A stretch of 32,654 nt of DNA from Cyclobacteriaceae bacterium (GTDB taxonomy: Bacteria > Bacteroidota > Bacteroidia > Cytophagales > Cyclobacteriaceae), in NCBI GenBank assembly GCA_947458585.1, contig CANGYY010000026.1:1-32654 (forward strand), in the 5' to 3' direction. This document shows positions 1 through 4,055 of the stretch, in pieces. Under the pieces are notes generated by a model. That model saw nothing but the letters and a program-made list of their open reading frames with translations. It was not told the origin of the DNA and did no database searches. Position 1 is the stretch's first letter, and each line of letters opens with the position of its first letter. A program made the position numbers and the translations under genes.

Positions 1-60
1 GATTTACATCACCGAATCAAATTCGTAGTCAAATCCATTTTTGTTACTTACTTTTAATCT

Positions 61-717: not shown

Positions 718-1524
718 CTAGCGAAGGATAAGAAGGGGAACCTGGGTTTGAAAGGCCATTTGGATGGACTTACTTTTGGTAAAAAGTTCCTCCCAAAATC
801 CCTGATGTGCATGGCTCATCACCAATATCCCTGGATGTGATTTCATGTAAGTACCAAGTACCTCTGTTGGCTTTTCTCCAGTTAGTGTTAAGAATTCAGC
901 CTTTATACTCGGATATTTTTTGCTGAGGTACTGCTTGATTCCCAATTCCAGAAGAATCTCTTTAAACTCTTGTTTTTCAGTAATTTGTACGTGAATTACC
1001 TGAAGTTTTCCTTTCCATTTTTTGATTTGCTTGGCCAACCAATCCAGCGTTGGAGGTTCGTGCTCGGCAAACTCCAAGCCAAGGACAAATTGATGGAGGT
1101 TGGTTTTGGCCGCAGTCGCAGGAATTACCAGGACTGGAGAGGGGGCCTCGCGGATCACCGAAACTGCCACGGTACCGATCAGTGACTTTGTAATCCCGCT
1201 AGCGCCCTGGGTTCCCATCACAATCAAGTTTACTTTTTGTTTTGAAGCCAGTTGACTGATTTGAAGTGCAGGATTTCCCTCTTCAAGTTTAAACCTCAAG
1301 GCTACCTGAGTATGGGCATGCTTTGCGAGCAATTCCTTGCCTCTTTTTCTTCCTTCTTTGAGTTGCTGTTCGGTAAATAATGCCATCTGAGTTGCAAAAT
1401 CATAGTGCGTTTCAATGACATGGATTACCGTGATCCGATCTACTCTTGGAGATGCTAGTGCCAAGGCGACGTCAAGGGCTTGGAGGGAGTTGTCCGAAAA
1501 ATCTACAGGAACGAGGTAGTGCAT
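718..1524 (-). CDS. Universal stress protein, tandem UspA domains
   Basis: 268 aa, two UspA folds in tandem (about 1-138 and 145-268). It starts with the typical Usp strand MHYLVPVDFSDNS. The first domain keeps the ATP-binding motif G-x2-G-x9-G-(S/T) near residues 103-117 (G-TQ-G...G-T). The second domain has no intact copy of that motif, so probably only the first binds nucleotide. These soluble proteins support survival under starvation, low oxygen or oxidative stress, and in Bacteroidota they often sit beside Crp/Fnr regulators. The gene converges on the Crp/Fnr gene with no spacer and diverges from the tauE-like gene. An imperfect inverted repeat (AACCAGGAATTCCCTGGGTT read on this strand, 1571-1590) lies about 50 bp before the start and could form a 5' leader hairpin. 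Confidence 0.92.
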   Translation of the reverse strand: MHYLVPVDFSDNSLQALDVALALASPRVDRITVIHVIETHYDFATQMALFTEQQLKEGRKRGKELLAKHAHTQVALRFKLEEGNPALQISQLASKQKVNLIVMGTQGASGITKSLIGTVAVSVIREAPSPVLVIPATAAKTNLHQFVLGLEFAEHEPPTLDWLAKQIKKWKGKLQVIHVQITEKQEFKEILLELGIKQYLSKKYPSIKAEFLTLTGEKPTEVLGTYMKSHPGILVMSHAHQGFWEELFTKSKSIQMAFQTQVPLLILR

Positions 1525-1723
1525 ACTGGATCTGCGTTTTATGGTTTAAAAATGAAAGGATGACCCCATAAACCCAGGGAATTCCTGGTTGGAAAAACTA
1601 ATGGAGTATACGGATCTTAAAAGGTTAAAGTTTAGTGATTTAGGTGGTCATGTAACATTTGTCACCGCTTTTGGGGAGGTCGGTGCGCTACTTTTGAGAA
1701 GTAAACTCTAACTTGTCATCTTA
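1525..1723. other. Divergent intergenic region between usp and tauE-like genes
   Basis: 199 bp with no credible ORF or RNA gene. It holds the tauE-like promoter (dyad 1652-1665, -7 box 1689-1696) and an imperfect inverted repeat at 1571-1590 in the presumed leader of the stress protein gene. On the minus strand the best -7-like sequence is TAGTTTTT near 1599-1592, one mismatch from TAnnTTTG; I do not call it. Confidence 0.6.
1652..1696 (+). promoter_or_regulatory. Crp-type operator plus -7 box of the tauE-like operon
   Basis: The dyad GTAACATTTGTCAC (1652-1665) fits GTRA-N6-TYAC, the CRP half-site geometry. A -7 box TACTTTTG (1689-1696) fits the Bacteroidota consensus TAnnTTTG. The dyad begins 37 bp before the box, which puts its centre near -41.5 if transcription starts about 11 bp after the box begins. 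That is the class II activator position, and the dyad lies where a -33 element would be. The same layout recurs at 3654-3698. Box and dyad are seen; binding by the adjacent regulator is inferred. Confidence 0.7.
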
Positions 1724-2530
1724 ATGGACGTGATCGTAATTATTGGTTTTGCTGCTGCTATTTTGATTGGTATCAGTTTGGGTCTGATCGGTGGTGGAGG
1801 ATCCATTCTTACTGTACCCGTGATGGTTTATATCCTGGACATTGATCCAGTTTTGGCTACTGCTTATTCCTTATTTGTAGTAGGAAGCACTTCCTTGGTA
1901 GGTGCAGGTACTTACATGAAAAAAGGATTGGTGAATTACAAAACAGCCTTGGTGTTTGCCATCCCTTCTTTCATCGCAGTATTTCTTACTCGGAAATTTT
2001 TAGTACCCGCACTTCCAGATCCTTTATTTTCTATCGGTGAGGCGATGATTACCAAAAACATCGGAATCATGGTTTTCTTTGCCTTGATCATGCTTGCTGC
2101 ATCGTATTCCATGATTTTTGCTAAAAAATGTGTGGATTGTGAGGAAGATAAGCCCGTCGCATTCAACTTCCCCATGATAGCGCTGGAAGGGTCAGTGGTA
2201 GGAGTAATTACAGGAATTGTTGGTGCTGGTGGAGGGTTCTTGATTATCCCTGCCTTAGTACTTCTGGCCAAACTCCCCATGAAAATGGCGGTAGGGACTT
2301 CACTGTTGATCATTGCTGCTAAGTCCTTAATTGGATTCTTGGGAGACCTTTCCACGCAGACCATCGATTGGCAACTCTTGTTGATATTTACTGGGCTTTC
2401 CATCGTAGGGATTTTTATTGGAAGTGCTTTGTCCAAAAAAATAAATGAAAAGGTTCTCAAAACAGGCTTTGGTTGGTTTGTGTTAGTAATGGGAATTTAT
2501 ATCATAACCAAAGAATTGTTAGCAGTTTAA
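1724..2530 (+). CDS. TauE/SafE family sulfite/anion exporter (membrane)
   Basis: 268 aa, about eight membrane segments in two homologous halves. Each half opens with the family's Gly-rich motif: G20-L-I-GGGGS-ILTVP near residues 20-32 and G164-IVGAGGG-FLIIP near 164-176. Family members export sulfite, sulfoacetate or other organosulfur anions, or move sulfur compounds for cysteine metabolism. The loop joining the halves has a C136-x-x-C139 pair followed by an acidic stretch, compatible with redox or metal/thiol chemistry, although that role is inference. The sterol-desaturase-family gene follows after 6 bp, so the two are co-transcribed. The promoter shares operator and -7 box with the rhodanese gene, which supports a sulfur role. 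Family assignment is firm; substrate unknown. Confidence 0.93.
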   Translation: MDVIVIIGFAAAILIGISLGLIGGGGSILTVPVMVYILDIDPVLATAYSLFVVGSTSLVGAGTYMKKGLVNYKTALVFAIPSFIAVFLTRKFLVPALPDPLFSIGEAMITKNIGIMVFFALIMLAASYSMIFAKKCVDCEEDKPVAFNFPMIALEGSVVGVITGIVGAGGGFLIIPALVLLAKLPMKMAVGTSLLIIAAKSLIGFLGDLSTQTIDWQLLLIFTGLSIVGIFIGSALSKKINEKVLKTGFGWFVLVMGIYIITKELLAV

Positions 2531-2536
2531 GATTCT

Positions 2537-3409
2537 ATGCAAGAATACATTCAGGTCTTCTTAGATGGTTATTACGGGTATTGGGACTACCTCAGTTCGG
2601 AAATTCTATATCCTTCTTGGCACAACTATTTCTGGTGGCTTATTGGTATTTCAATACTCGTATGGGGGCTTGAGTTGGCTTTTCCTTGGCGCAAAAACCA
2701 GGACGCTATTCGAGCGGATTTCTGGTTGGATGGCTTCTACATGTTTTTCAACTTTTTCCTCTTTTCCTTGATAGGATACAATGCGGTATCCAATGTGGCA
2801 GTAGCCGCTTTTTCTGATTTTCTAGGGCTGTTTGGAATTGAAAACTTGGTTGCCATTCAAGTGGCTTCTTGGCCCGCCTGGTCCCAGTTTTTACTACTCT
2901 TTGTCGTGGCTGACTTTATCCAGTGGAACGTTCACCGTTGGCTGCATTACAGTCCTTGGCTTTGGGAGTTTCACAAAGTGCACCATTCCGTAGAGGAGAT
3001 GGGCTTTGCGGCACACCTGCGCTACCATTGGATGGAGACCATTGTGTACAAATCTGTGCAATACATCCCGCTTGCCATGATTGGTTTTGGACTGGATGAT
3101 TTCTTTATCCTACACCTGGTGACCATAGTCATTGGCCACCTCAATCACGCCAATGTGAAGATCACTTATGGTCCGCTCAAGTATGTATTCAATAATCCAG
3201 TCATGCACCTTTGGCACCATGCGAAGGAGCTACCTGCTGGAAGCCATGGAGTCAATTATGGGATTTCTTTGAGCCTTTGGGATTACCTGTTTGGTACGGC
3301 CTACATCCCCAATGATAATGCAAATGAGCCGCTAGGTTTTGAAGCAGTGGAGACCTTCCCAAAAACCTTTTGGCAGCAACTCACCCACCCATGGAACAAG
3401 AAAAAGTAA
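2537..3409 (+). CDS. Sterol desaturase / fatty acid hydroxylase family di-iron membrane protein
   Basis: 290 aa integral membrane protein with the histidine boxes of the fatty acid hydroxylase superfamily: D126...H133-RWL-H137, H146-KV-HH150, H201-LN-H204 and H224-LW-HH228, with further His at 160, 164 and 237. These would hold a non-haem di-iron site that hydroxylates or desaturates a lipid. Membrane segments are predicted around 32-50, 66-88, 115-130 and 175-200. The spacing of 6 bp after the tauE-like gene indicates one operon, and its last 19 bp overlap the next small gene. Placement beside a sulfur exporter and a rhodanese is unexpected for a lipid enzyme. The substrate cannot be read from sequence. 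Confidence 0.9.
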   Translation: MQEYIQVFLDGYYGYWDYLSSEILYPSWHNYFWWLIGISILVWGLELAFPWRKNQDAIRADFWLDGFYMFFNFFLFSLIGYNAVSNVAVAAFSDFLGLFGIENLVAIQVASWPAWSQFLLLFVVADFIQWNVHRWLHYSPWLWEFHKVHHSVEEMGFAAHLRYHWMETIVYKSVQYIPLAMIGFGLDDFFILHLVTIVIGHLNHANVKITYGPLKYVFNNPVMHLWHHAKELPAGSHGVNYGISLSLWDYLFGTAYIPNDNANEPLGFEAVETFPKTFWQQLTHPWNKKK

Positions 3410-3648
3410 GCAAGCTCAGTGCATTGAATAGTTTCCGTTTTGTTGGGATACTATGTCTCCTTCTTGGTCTCGCTCCCTTTTTTCCGGAGCCGCATGTCTG
3501 GGGCAAGATTCGCTGGGTAGCCGGTGGAGCAGTAGGAATGGGAACCATGGATTGGTTGGACCTGCTCTGGCATGGATTTCCTTGGGTACTTTTGGCTCGT
3601 CTCGGGGTACTGGAGTTGAATAAAAGAAAAAAAGCAGCAGTCAAGTAA
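3391..3648 (+). CDS. Small membrane protein, unknown function
   Basis: 85 aa from the ATG at 3391, which overlaps the end of the sterol-desaturase-family gene by 19 bp and implies translational coupling. An upstream in-frame start at 3370 lies deeper inside that gene and is less likely. Two hydrophobic stretches are visible: about residues 15-32 (FVGILCLLLGLAPFF) and about 57-75 (around WHGFPWVLLARLGVLEL). They are joined by a loop rich in Gly and Trp, and the protein ends in a basic tail. I recognise no family. The context suggests an accessory subunit or a partner of the tauE-like/hydroxylase pair. Coding status is supported by the overlap and by fitting between two co-oriented genes. Confidence 0.7.
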   Translation: MEQEKVSKLSALNSFRFVGILCLLLGLAPFFPEPHVWGKIRWVAGGAVGMGTMDWLDLLWHGFPWVLLARLGVLELNKRKKAAVK

Positions 3649-3653
3649 GGGAG

Positions 3654-3698
3654 GTGACTTTTATTACTGAAGATATGGTTGCGCCCGTGGTACTTTTG
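3654..3698 (+). promoter_or_regulatory. Crp-type operator plus -7 box of the rhodanese gene
   Basis: The dyad GTGACTTTTATTAC (3654-3667) fits GTRA-N6-TYAC. A -7 box TACTTTTG (3691-3698) starts 37 bp after the dyad starts, exactly as in the tauE-like promoter, and nine bases (TACTTTTGA) are identical at both. GTGGT (3687-3691) and ACCAC (3699-3703) also flank the -7 box as an inverted repeat, which may add a further control point. Because this promoter exists, the rhodanese gene need not depend on read-through from the upstream operon. Confidence 0.7.
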
Positions 3699-3719
3699 AC
3701 CACCTAAACAACAACGACC

Positions 3720-4055
3720 ATGTTTAATTTCTTTTCTTCTAAAGCAAAAAAATACGAAGATATCCCTGCAGGACCTTTTCACGACCTCATGACCCAACCC
3801 AATGCGGTGGTGATTGATGTCCGCACAGCTGGTGAATTTGCCGGAGGCAAACTTCGTGGAGCACGAAATATCGATATCATGTCTTCGACCTTTGTATCAC
3901 AAATCAAGAACCTTCCCAAAGACAAGACCTACCTCATTTATTGCCGAAGCGGCAATCGAAGCGGGCAGGCTTGTGATAGGATGTGCGAAGAAGGATTTGA
4001 AAATGTAAAAAATCTGGCCGGTGGCATCATGAGATGGCCATTTCAGACTGTTTGA
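3720..4055 (+). CDS. Single-domain rhodanese-like sulfurtransferase
   Basis: 111 aa, one rhodanese domain. The N-terminal VIDVRTAGEF (residues 31-40) is the conserved first motif. The active-site loop is C75-RSGNRS, with Cys75 the persulfide-forming residue, and the C-terminal GGIMRW motif (101-106) is typical of GlpE/PspE-like enzymes. Two more cysteines (85, 89) follow the loop. There is no signal peptide, so it acts in the cytosol, moving sulfane sulfur from thiosulfate or persulfides to acceptors such as glutathione-like thiols or cyanide. Its own promoter carries the dyad shared with the tauE-like operon. A strong bidirectional terminator follows 18 bp after the stop codon. Confidence 0.94.
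   Translation: MFNFFSSKAKKYEDIPAGPFHDLMTQPNAVVIDVRTAGEFAGGKLRGARNIDIMSSTFVSQIKNLPKDKTYLIYCRSGNRSGQACDRMCEEGFENVKNLAGGIMRWPFQTV

Follow-up and report, generated by a model that had tools for sequence, protein, structure and literature searches.

In the CstR-cstAB system of Staphylococcus aureus, a thiol-based sensor of persulfide controls TauE, rhodanese and a metallo-beta-lactamase (MBL)-rhodanese persulfide dioxygenase (PDO); the regulator BigR is of the ArsR type. In the Crp/Fnr family, Escherichia coli CRP has an R-E-x-x-x-R recognition helix, uses GTGA-type half sites at class II promoters and carries a phosphate-binding Arg-Ser in its cyclic-nucleotide loop, and FNR holds a 4Fe-4S cluster with four cysteines. 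Sulfidic waters and sediments commonly harbour heterotrophic Bacteroidota. FisR and BigR control genes for PDO, sulfide:quinone oxidoreductase (SQR), TauE and YeeE/YedE in the sulfide response of Acinetobacter baumannii, according to the available part of PMC7315123. Here, we analyzed a 32,654-nucleotide stretch (hereinafter referred to as the window) from a Cyclobacteriaceae bacterium (GCA_947458585.1), which is the entire contig C26 (CANGYY010000026.1) of a 2.78-Mb genome that is 82.6% complete. The window encodes a Crp/Fnr-family regulator, a tauE operon and a rhodanese gene, and the promoters of the latter two share a dyad and a -7 box. The closest named relative (L032), whose regulator is 95% identical, is an uncultured Algoriphagus metagenome-assembled genome (MAG), which makes the source bacterium Algoriphagus-like. 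With a probability of about 0.82, the regulator is a Crp/Fnr-family protein that activates a sulfide/persulfide regulon in class II fashion, probably sensing thiols or persulfide. The putative regulon and its promoter geometry are well supported by sequence comparison, and operator binding by the neighbouring regulator is strongly suggested; activation and, as the least certain step, the signal sensed are what we infer from them.

Both promoters were found exactly, in letters and position, as the original prediction had described them: each carries a GTRA-N6-TYAC dyad, a -7 box 37 bp from it and the same nine bases from the box start onward (Table 1). The box has the TAnnTTTG form of Bacteroidota sigma-A promoters. 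Simulating the window 200 times with an order-1 Markov model gave 1.05 expected dyads, and four were found; dyads with TAnnTTTG at 36 or 37 bp numbered two against 0.01 expected (both strands). A third dyad, unnoticed earlier, lies upstream of the regulator gene, where the contig start cuts into it, and CATTTTTG stands 37 bp from its inferred start. Near relatives have a complete dyad 62 bp before the regulator ATG (e.g., GTGATTTGGATCAC in L033) followed by nearly identical sequence, from which the two missing bases can be supplied provisionally.

Conservation was assessed in 81 regulator loci, comprising the best 80 of 102 from one genome-contig scan and the window; these footprint loci belong to one bacterial family. 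The dyad was present in the tauE promoter of all 54 tauE-bearing loci (window included), with an exact TAnnTTTG 36 or 37 bp after it in 53 and a one-mismatch box at 37 bp in the other. A rhodanese match occurred in 38 loci (window included); the rhodanese promoter had the dyad in 30 of them, with an exact box at 36/37 bp in 29 and a one-mismatch box at 37 bp in one. Two cultured species, Algoriphagus aquaeductus (L043) and A. marincola (L049), carry both the tauE and the rhodanese site. Thus, the first exact box followed at 36 bp (27) or 37 bp (55) for 82 of the 84 dyads, and the remaining two (L060 and L099) had no exact box and a one-mismatch box at 37 bp; six additional dyad-box pairs at 58-75 bp were second boxes. 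The 54 tauE promoters agreed closely over the 14-bp dyad (mean pairwise identity 0.90) but little over the spacer (0.35) or the 30 bp upstream of the dyad (0.33). The T directly 5' of the dyad and the C three bases 3' of it were also invariant. The predicted GTRA-N6-TYAC pattern, correct for both dyads, could be refined for tauE promoters to T-GTRAC-N4-GTYAC, which is invariant or nearly so. In the 969,293 bases of these loci, searched on both strands, no dyad with a box was found outside the promoters of tauE (53), rhodanese (29) and the regulator (10). Dyad and spacing, on whose conservation in relatives the original prediction depended, were therefore retained. The universal stress protein gene (usp) next to the regulator was dropped as a regulon member, since no dyad was found 40-85 bp before its start in any of 68 usp promoters.

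In Flavobacterium psychrophilum, the TAnnTTTG box spans -12 to -5, as given in the available text of PMC9723704. With this start position the dyad would be centred at -42.5 for the 37-bp spacing and at -41.5 for the 36-bp spacing, a class II geometry for the 82 dyads with a first exact box at these distances. The centre of -41.5 proposed earlier would then hold for the 36-bp variants and shift to about -42.5 for the 37-bp spacing. The usual -33 element would sit just after the dyad; a TTG at offsets 14-22 was found in 12 of the 54 tauE promoters, so that this element is not conserved there and the activator probably replaces it. Taken jointly, the fixed spacing, the absent -33 element and the CRP-type helix speak for class II activation.

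Genome scans were performed with a sequence-only promoter profile built from 30 promoters, including some sites of the window and congeners; thioredoxin sites were outside the training promoters. In ten congeneric genomes, the 20 matches with E <= 0.0125 lay before tauE (10), rhodanese (5) and thioredoxin (4) genes and inside a coding sequence (1, L154), so that 19 of the 20 best matches of the proposed genome scan preceded sulfur genes. A PDO-like gene followed the thioredoxin gene at each of the four thioredoxin sites (L147, L152, L153, L155). In the genome of the window, the third-best match (C13:7839-7885), behind only the two window sites, has a dyad 37 bp before TACCTTTG and lies upstream of consecutive thioredoxin, MBL-rhodanese (PDO), YeeE and DUF6691-type genes. 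The candidate sulfur regulon is thus supported by the tauE, rhodanese and thioredoxin-PDO sites and by the families of their targets. Profile matches off sulfur genes were within coding sequences (L149, L154) or before or in unrelated open reading frames (ORFs; L150, L161). The ten-genome inspection covered matches with a locus, which excluded, among others, G033:C1:1940131 (E 0.024) and five identical matches in G010 (0.109).

Several gene names rest on the resemblance of protein starts and others on Pfam/NCBIfam scans. The latter identified Lactamase_B with Rhodanese, Thioredoxin, Sulf_transp and DUF6691 among partner genes of congeners, and YgaP-like_TM and DUF302 at more distant loci. The SQR-like oxidoreductase scored 243.6 bits with the type III SQR model, under the NCBI cut-off of 525. 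No tauE was found beside the regulator in 12 genomes that represent further genera of the family (Lunatibacter, Belliella, Cognataquiflexum, Cyclobacterium, Aquiflexum, Rhodonellum, Arthrospiribacter, Indibacter, Cecembia and Nitritalea). Of their 33 listed matches, 30 with a locus were inspected; 24 lay before sulfur genes, a fatty acid hydroxylase or the regulator and six elsewhere. The targets were the regulator (6), thioredoxin (5), rhodanese (4), SoxB-like proteins (2), SoxA/TsdA-type cytochromes (2) and, once each, SQR-like, SulP, YeeE, MBL-rhodanese and hydroxylase, the last three at 190-280 bp. The SoxB-like proteins scored about 206 bits with TIGR04486 (cut-off 550) and are therefore treated as relatives whose identity as SoxB is unproven.

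The regulator gene and an SQR-like gene may themselves be targets. A dyad was found 40-85 bp before the ATG in 56 of the 81 regulator promoters, followed by an exact box at 36 bp in 10 and at 35 bp in one, by a one-mismatch box at 36/37 bp in 38 (CATTTTTG in 11), and by none in seven. In 32 of the 81 loci, an SQR-like gene was divergent to the regulator, and all 32 gaps contained one to three dyads, located 40-85 bp before the SQR start in 24. PDO, SQR, TauE and rhodanese are candidate targets by operator position.

The regulator matched PF00027, PF13545 and PF00325 above their curated cut-offs, and no ArsR (BigR/SqrR), CsoR (CstR) or FisR domain was found among its Pfam matches, which were solely of the Crp/Fnr type. 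The R-E-x-x-x-R motif claimed for its recognition helix is present (R183, E184, R188) and invariant in 81/81 sequences; R183 and R188 were kept in all of 20 more distant homologues, and E184 in 17 of them. Its sole cysteines (Cys78, Cys84 and Cys85) were each found in 81/81 sequences and, in the distant homologues, in 20/20, 18/20 and 17/20, respectively. They lie in a loop whose position we take to be that of the CRP loop holding the cAMP phosphate. This loop reads GETCALSLTCCSASRPSEIKA in the regulator; distant rows of the alignment, which had no CRP row, have Pro, Lys and others before Ser. The regulator scored 54.5 bits with the curated CRP model NF008732, below its cut-off of 266, and with three cysteines it has no FNR-type four-cysteine cluster. 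The best 50 of 1956 fold matches of the regulator were of the CRP/FNR type. The AlphaFold2 model showed a CRP fold (mean pLDDT 83.5, pTM 0.61), and its fold search ranked 4ev0 first and 3ryp third.

Further regulator-related sequences were observed in relatives. Two congeners (L130, L131) carry a paralogous regulator, approximately 40% identical and preceded by a dyad, with a divergent small ORF 73-78 bp from that dyad and a box at 35 bp. In L036 (7967-8107) and G027:C11:7101-7244, the last 48 codons of the regulator are repeated about 1.3 kb past the intact gene, which looks like an insertion-caused duplication.

Co-occurrence of regulator and dyads was examined in 18 genomes with the regulator (E <= 1e-20) and 18 lacking it, most of the 36 coming from the wider order. 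The scan listed 62 matches; inspection covered the 30 that had a locus, 19 of them from genomes with the regulator and 11 from genomes lacking it. Inspected matches before a sulfur gene were found in 11/18 genomes with the regulator vs. 1/18 without (Fisher p 0.0009, relatedness ignored). Upstream regions were also read directly for a dyad at 40-150 bp (30 of 35 places for PDO, 30 of 30 for TauE). Ignoring kinship, PDO genes had a dyad in 9/23 cases with and 0/7 without the regulator, and TauE genes in 11/20 and 1/10, respectively. The lone regulator-less TauE dyad is on a MAG contig (G029) that ends 848 bp upstream of it. In another congener scored as regulator-less (G049), tauE is 90% identical and the box is retained, with the dyad lost; on its contig C51 (L280), a sequence resembling the regulator promoters of L039 and L042, start codon included, continues into the region of the tauE box. 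A single deletion may have removed the dyad along with usp and the regulator, or the MAG may be mis-joined, and the co-loss of regulator and operator was rejected as independent support because it is one event at most.

Across the phylum, a regulator homologue was found in 68 of 198 evenly drawn Bacteroidota genomes (E <= 1e-35). The 26 loci read (L194-L219) contained 20 dyads vs. 4.4 expected, some within coding sequences. The homologue often, though not always, stands beside genes resembling those for PDO, TauE, SQR-like, YeeE, YgaP-like or rhodanese proteins, and the C-x5-C of Cys78 and Cys84 is kept in 6/7 phylum loci with a parsable loop.

Several findings weigh against the proposed activator and its regulon. 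The loci are related, and counts are therefore not independent events. Twenty-five of the 81 regulator promoters, including the partial site of the window, lacked a dyad at 40-85 bp; 8/38 rhodanese promoters did so as well, some of them directly after tauE and some with a decayed dyad. Regulator promoter boxes were weaker than those of tauE and rhodanese, and SQR promoter boxes were weak (14 with one mismatch at 36 bp, none exact). In regulator-bearing genomes of the order, 14/23 PDO and 9/20 TauE genes had no dyad. The two congeners scored as regulator-less, G029 and G049, are incomplete MAGs whose contigs end shortly upstream of tauE. The genome of the window gave no SQR match at E <= 1e-10, which at its completeness shows little, and its inspection left out the weaker matches G000:C1:12354 and C47:11925. 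In addition, the cysteine loop was modelled at low confidence (pLDDT < 50 at 81-88). A kept element may moreover owe its persistence to chance or shared ancestry and have no function, given that the footprint loci come from one family and near relatives share much; we find this hardly credible, because the flanks have decayed to 33-35% identity with the dyad at 90%, and the same element occurs before non-homologous genes at other loci. It is also quite unlikely that the dyads are real operators of another Crp/Fnr protein of the cell. The incomplete genome and the two or three homologues of some relatives would allow for such a protein, but the one other family member found in this genome (L002, G000:C2) is 25% identical to the regulator and has the helix T-A-T-E-S-V-I-R, of the E-SxxR and not the R-E-x-x-x-R type, with an N-terminal CxxC. 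The E-SxxR helix is presumably FNR-like and TTGAT-preferring. The occurrence of dyads ahead of the regulator gene and between it and SQR, together with their scarcity where the regulator is absent, further points to the regulator itself. In L002, a gene for a rhodanese-like protein with a signal-peptide-like start follows the other Crp/Fnr gene.

The sign of regulation and the signal were weighed separately. The regulator could be a repressor or dual, with the dyad at about -42 blocking polymerase until a signal arrives, as for BigR and CstR. CstR represses, and a -42 site overlaps the place of a would-be -33 element; repression is likewise how the known persulfide regulator BigR acts, according to the available part of PMC7315123. 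We regard this as unlikely, since a first box fixed at 36/37 bp in nearly all promoters fits polymerase contact and would be needless for a block, and a TTG stands at the would-be -33 place in so few of the tauE promoters; the R-E-x-x-x-R helix and class II spacing also resemble CRP activation. The gene content, which is like that of the FisR/BigR sulfide regulons, points to a persulfide- or thiol-responsive activator. That the regulator controls these genes yet responds not to sulfane sulfur but to a small ligand, to oxygen or nitric oxide, or to thiol oxidation in general is a serious possibility, although we would still bet against it. Crp/Fnr proteins sense diverse signals, the invariant cysteines could serve disulfide or metal sensing, and a Eubacterium rectale protein of known structure (3dv8), whose C-x5-C occupies the same position, is named a putative regulator only. 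On the other hand, judging by family, most of the targets inspected act on sulfide, persulfide or thiosulfate, and three cysteines are too few for the four-cysteine cluster of FNR.

Table 1. Features of the window that bear on the proposed regulon.
Feature	Position	Strand	Remark
Partial dyad GATTTACATCAC before regulator gene	1..12	+	12/14 bases of expected GTGATTTACATCAC
-7-like box CATTTTTG of regulator promoter	36..43	+	One mismatch to TAnnTTTG
Crp/Fnr-family regulator, 218 aa	61..717	+	Pfam PF00027, PF13545, PF00325
Universal stress protein gene (usp), divergent	718..1524	-	PF00582
Dyad 1 GTAACATTTGTCAC, candidate operator of tauE operon	1652..1665	+	
-7 box TACTTTTG of tauE operon	1689..1696	+	Within 9-base TACTTTTGA, 1689-1697
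TauE/SafE-type sulfite exporter gene (tauE)	1724..2530	+	PF01925, E 2.6e-45
Fatty acid hydroxylase superfamily gene, tauE operon	2537..3409	+	PF04116
Small conserved membrane ORF, ATG 3391	3391..3648	+	
Dyad 2 GTGACTTTTATTAC, candidate operator of rhodanese gene	3654..3667	+	
-7 box TACTTTTG of rhodanese gene	3691..3698	+	Within 9-base TACTTTTGA, 3691-3699
Single-domain rhodanese (sulfurtransferase)	3720..4055	+	PF00581

The fatty acid hydroxylase gene follows tauE in many congeners, and a dyad-box pair was observed 269 bp upstream of a hydroxylase homologue in L307. Algoriphagus makes sulfonolipids, so a link between lipids and sulfur through the hydroxylase deserves attention. The small membrane ORF, which had no match in Pfam or NCBIfam at E <= 0.001, lies 3' of the hydroxylase in most hydroxylase-bearing loci. 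At a distant locus (L115), its homologue is downstream of regulator and dyad, and no tauE or hydroxylase match was found there. An inverted 12-mer shared by the two promoters (TTTAGGTGGTCA at 1639, TGACCACCTAAA at 3697) was discarded as drift or chance because it is absent from the nearest relative, L032; TTTAGGTGGTCA is immediately 5' of dyad 1, and the inverted copy overlaps the last bases of box 2.

In the proposed mechanism, dyads 1 and 2 would be operators of a single regulon. The regulator would bind TGTRAC-N4-GTYAC dyads centred near -42, contact RNA polymerase as a class II activator, probably substituting for the -33 element, and also drive its own gene. Its probable signal is sulfane sulfur or some other thiol oxidant, perceived via Cys78 and Cys84 (C-x5-C). 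The pathway under its control would comprise SQR where present, thioredoxin with the MBL-rhodanese PDO, rhodanese, thiosulfate-type transporters (YeeE/DUF6691) and sulfite export by TauE, with SoxB-like and SoxA/TsdA-type proteins in some relatives. We see about as much reason to believe as to doubt a broader claim, namely that the cyclic-nucleotide loop has become a C-x5-C sensor of sulfane sulfur in a Bacteroidota-wide Crp/Fnr family, whose members act from TGTRAC-N4-GTYAC sites as class II activators of the phylum's genes for oxidation of sulfide to sulfite and thiosulfate (SQR, MBL-rhodanese dioxygenase, SoxB-like, TauE, YeeE).

The Bacteroidota genomes studied here carry SQR-like and PDO-like genes, and in open-access full text, among the matches listed, we found no description of their regulation in the phylum or of a Crp/Fnr regulator of Bacteroidota sulfide oxidation; subscription papers and preprints were outside the scope of that search. 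With a well-defined operator, a regulator that is named and a target list, this regulation is directly testable, and the invariant cysteine loop offers a clear point-mutant test for a thiol sensor on the CRP fold.

The regulator resembles E. coli CRP in its R-E-x-x-x-R helix, GTGA-type half sites, a dyad near -41.5/-42.5 and a CRP-type fold, but has GETCALSLTCC instead of the cyclic-nucleotide phosphate loop, and its regulon differs in the TAnnTTTG -7 box of Bacteroidota and in its sulfur targets. The best match to a solved structure by sequence was EUBREC_1222 (PDB 3dv8) from the Firmicute E. rectale, which has the C-x5-C at the same alignment place but is 23% identical and is titled a putative regulator. 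CstR-cstAB likewise joins MBL-rhodanese persulfide dioxygenase, TauE and rhodanese genes, but CstR is a CsoR-family repressor. F. psychrophilum sigma-A promoters share TAnnTTTG at -12 to -5, but the main text of PMC9723704 does not contain the words Crp or Fnr. The FisR and BigR regulons, in the available part of PMC7315123, share PDO, SQR, TauE and YeeE/YedE as targets, but FisR works as a sigma54 activator, BigR represses, and neither belongs to Crp/Fnr. If the broader claim holds, the Crp/Fnr family proposed here would be a further persulfide-sensing scaffold besides the ArsR/CsoR repressors and FisR.

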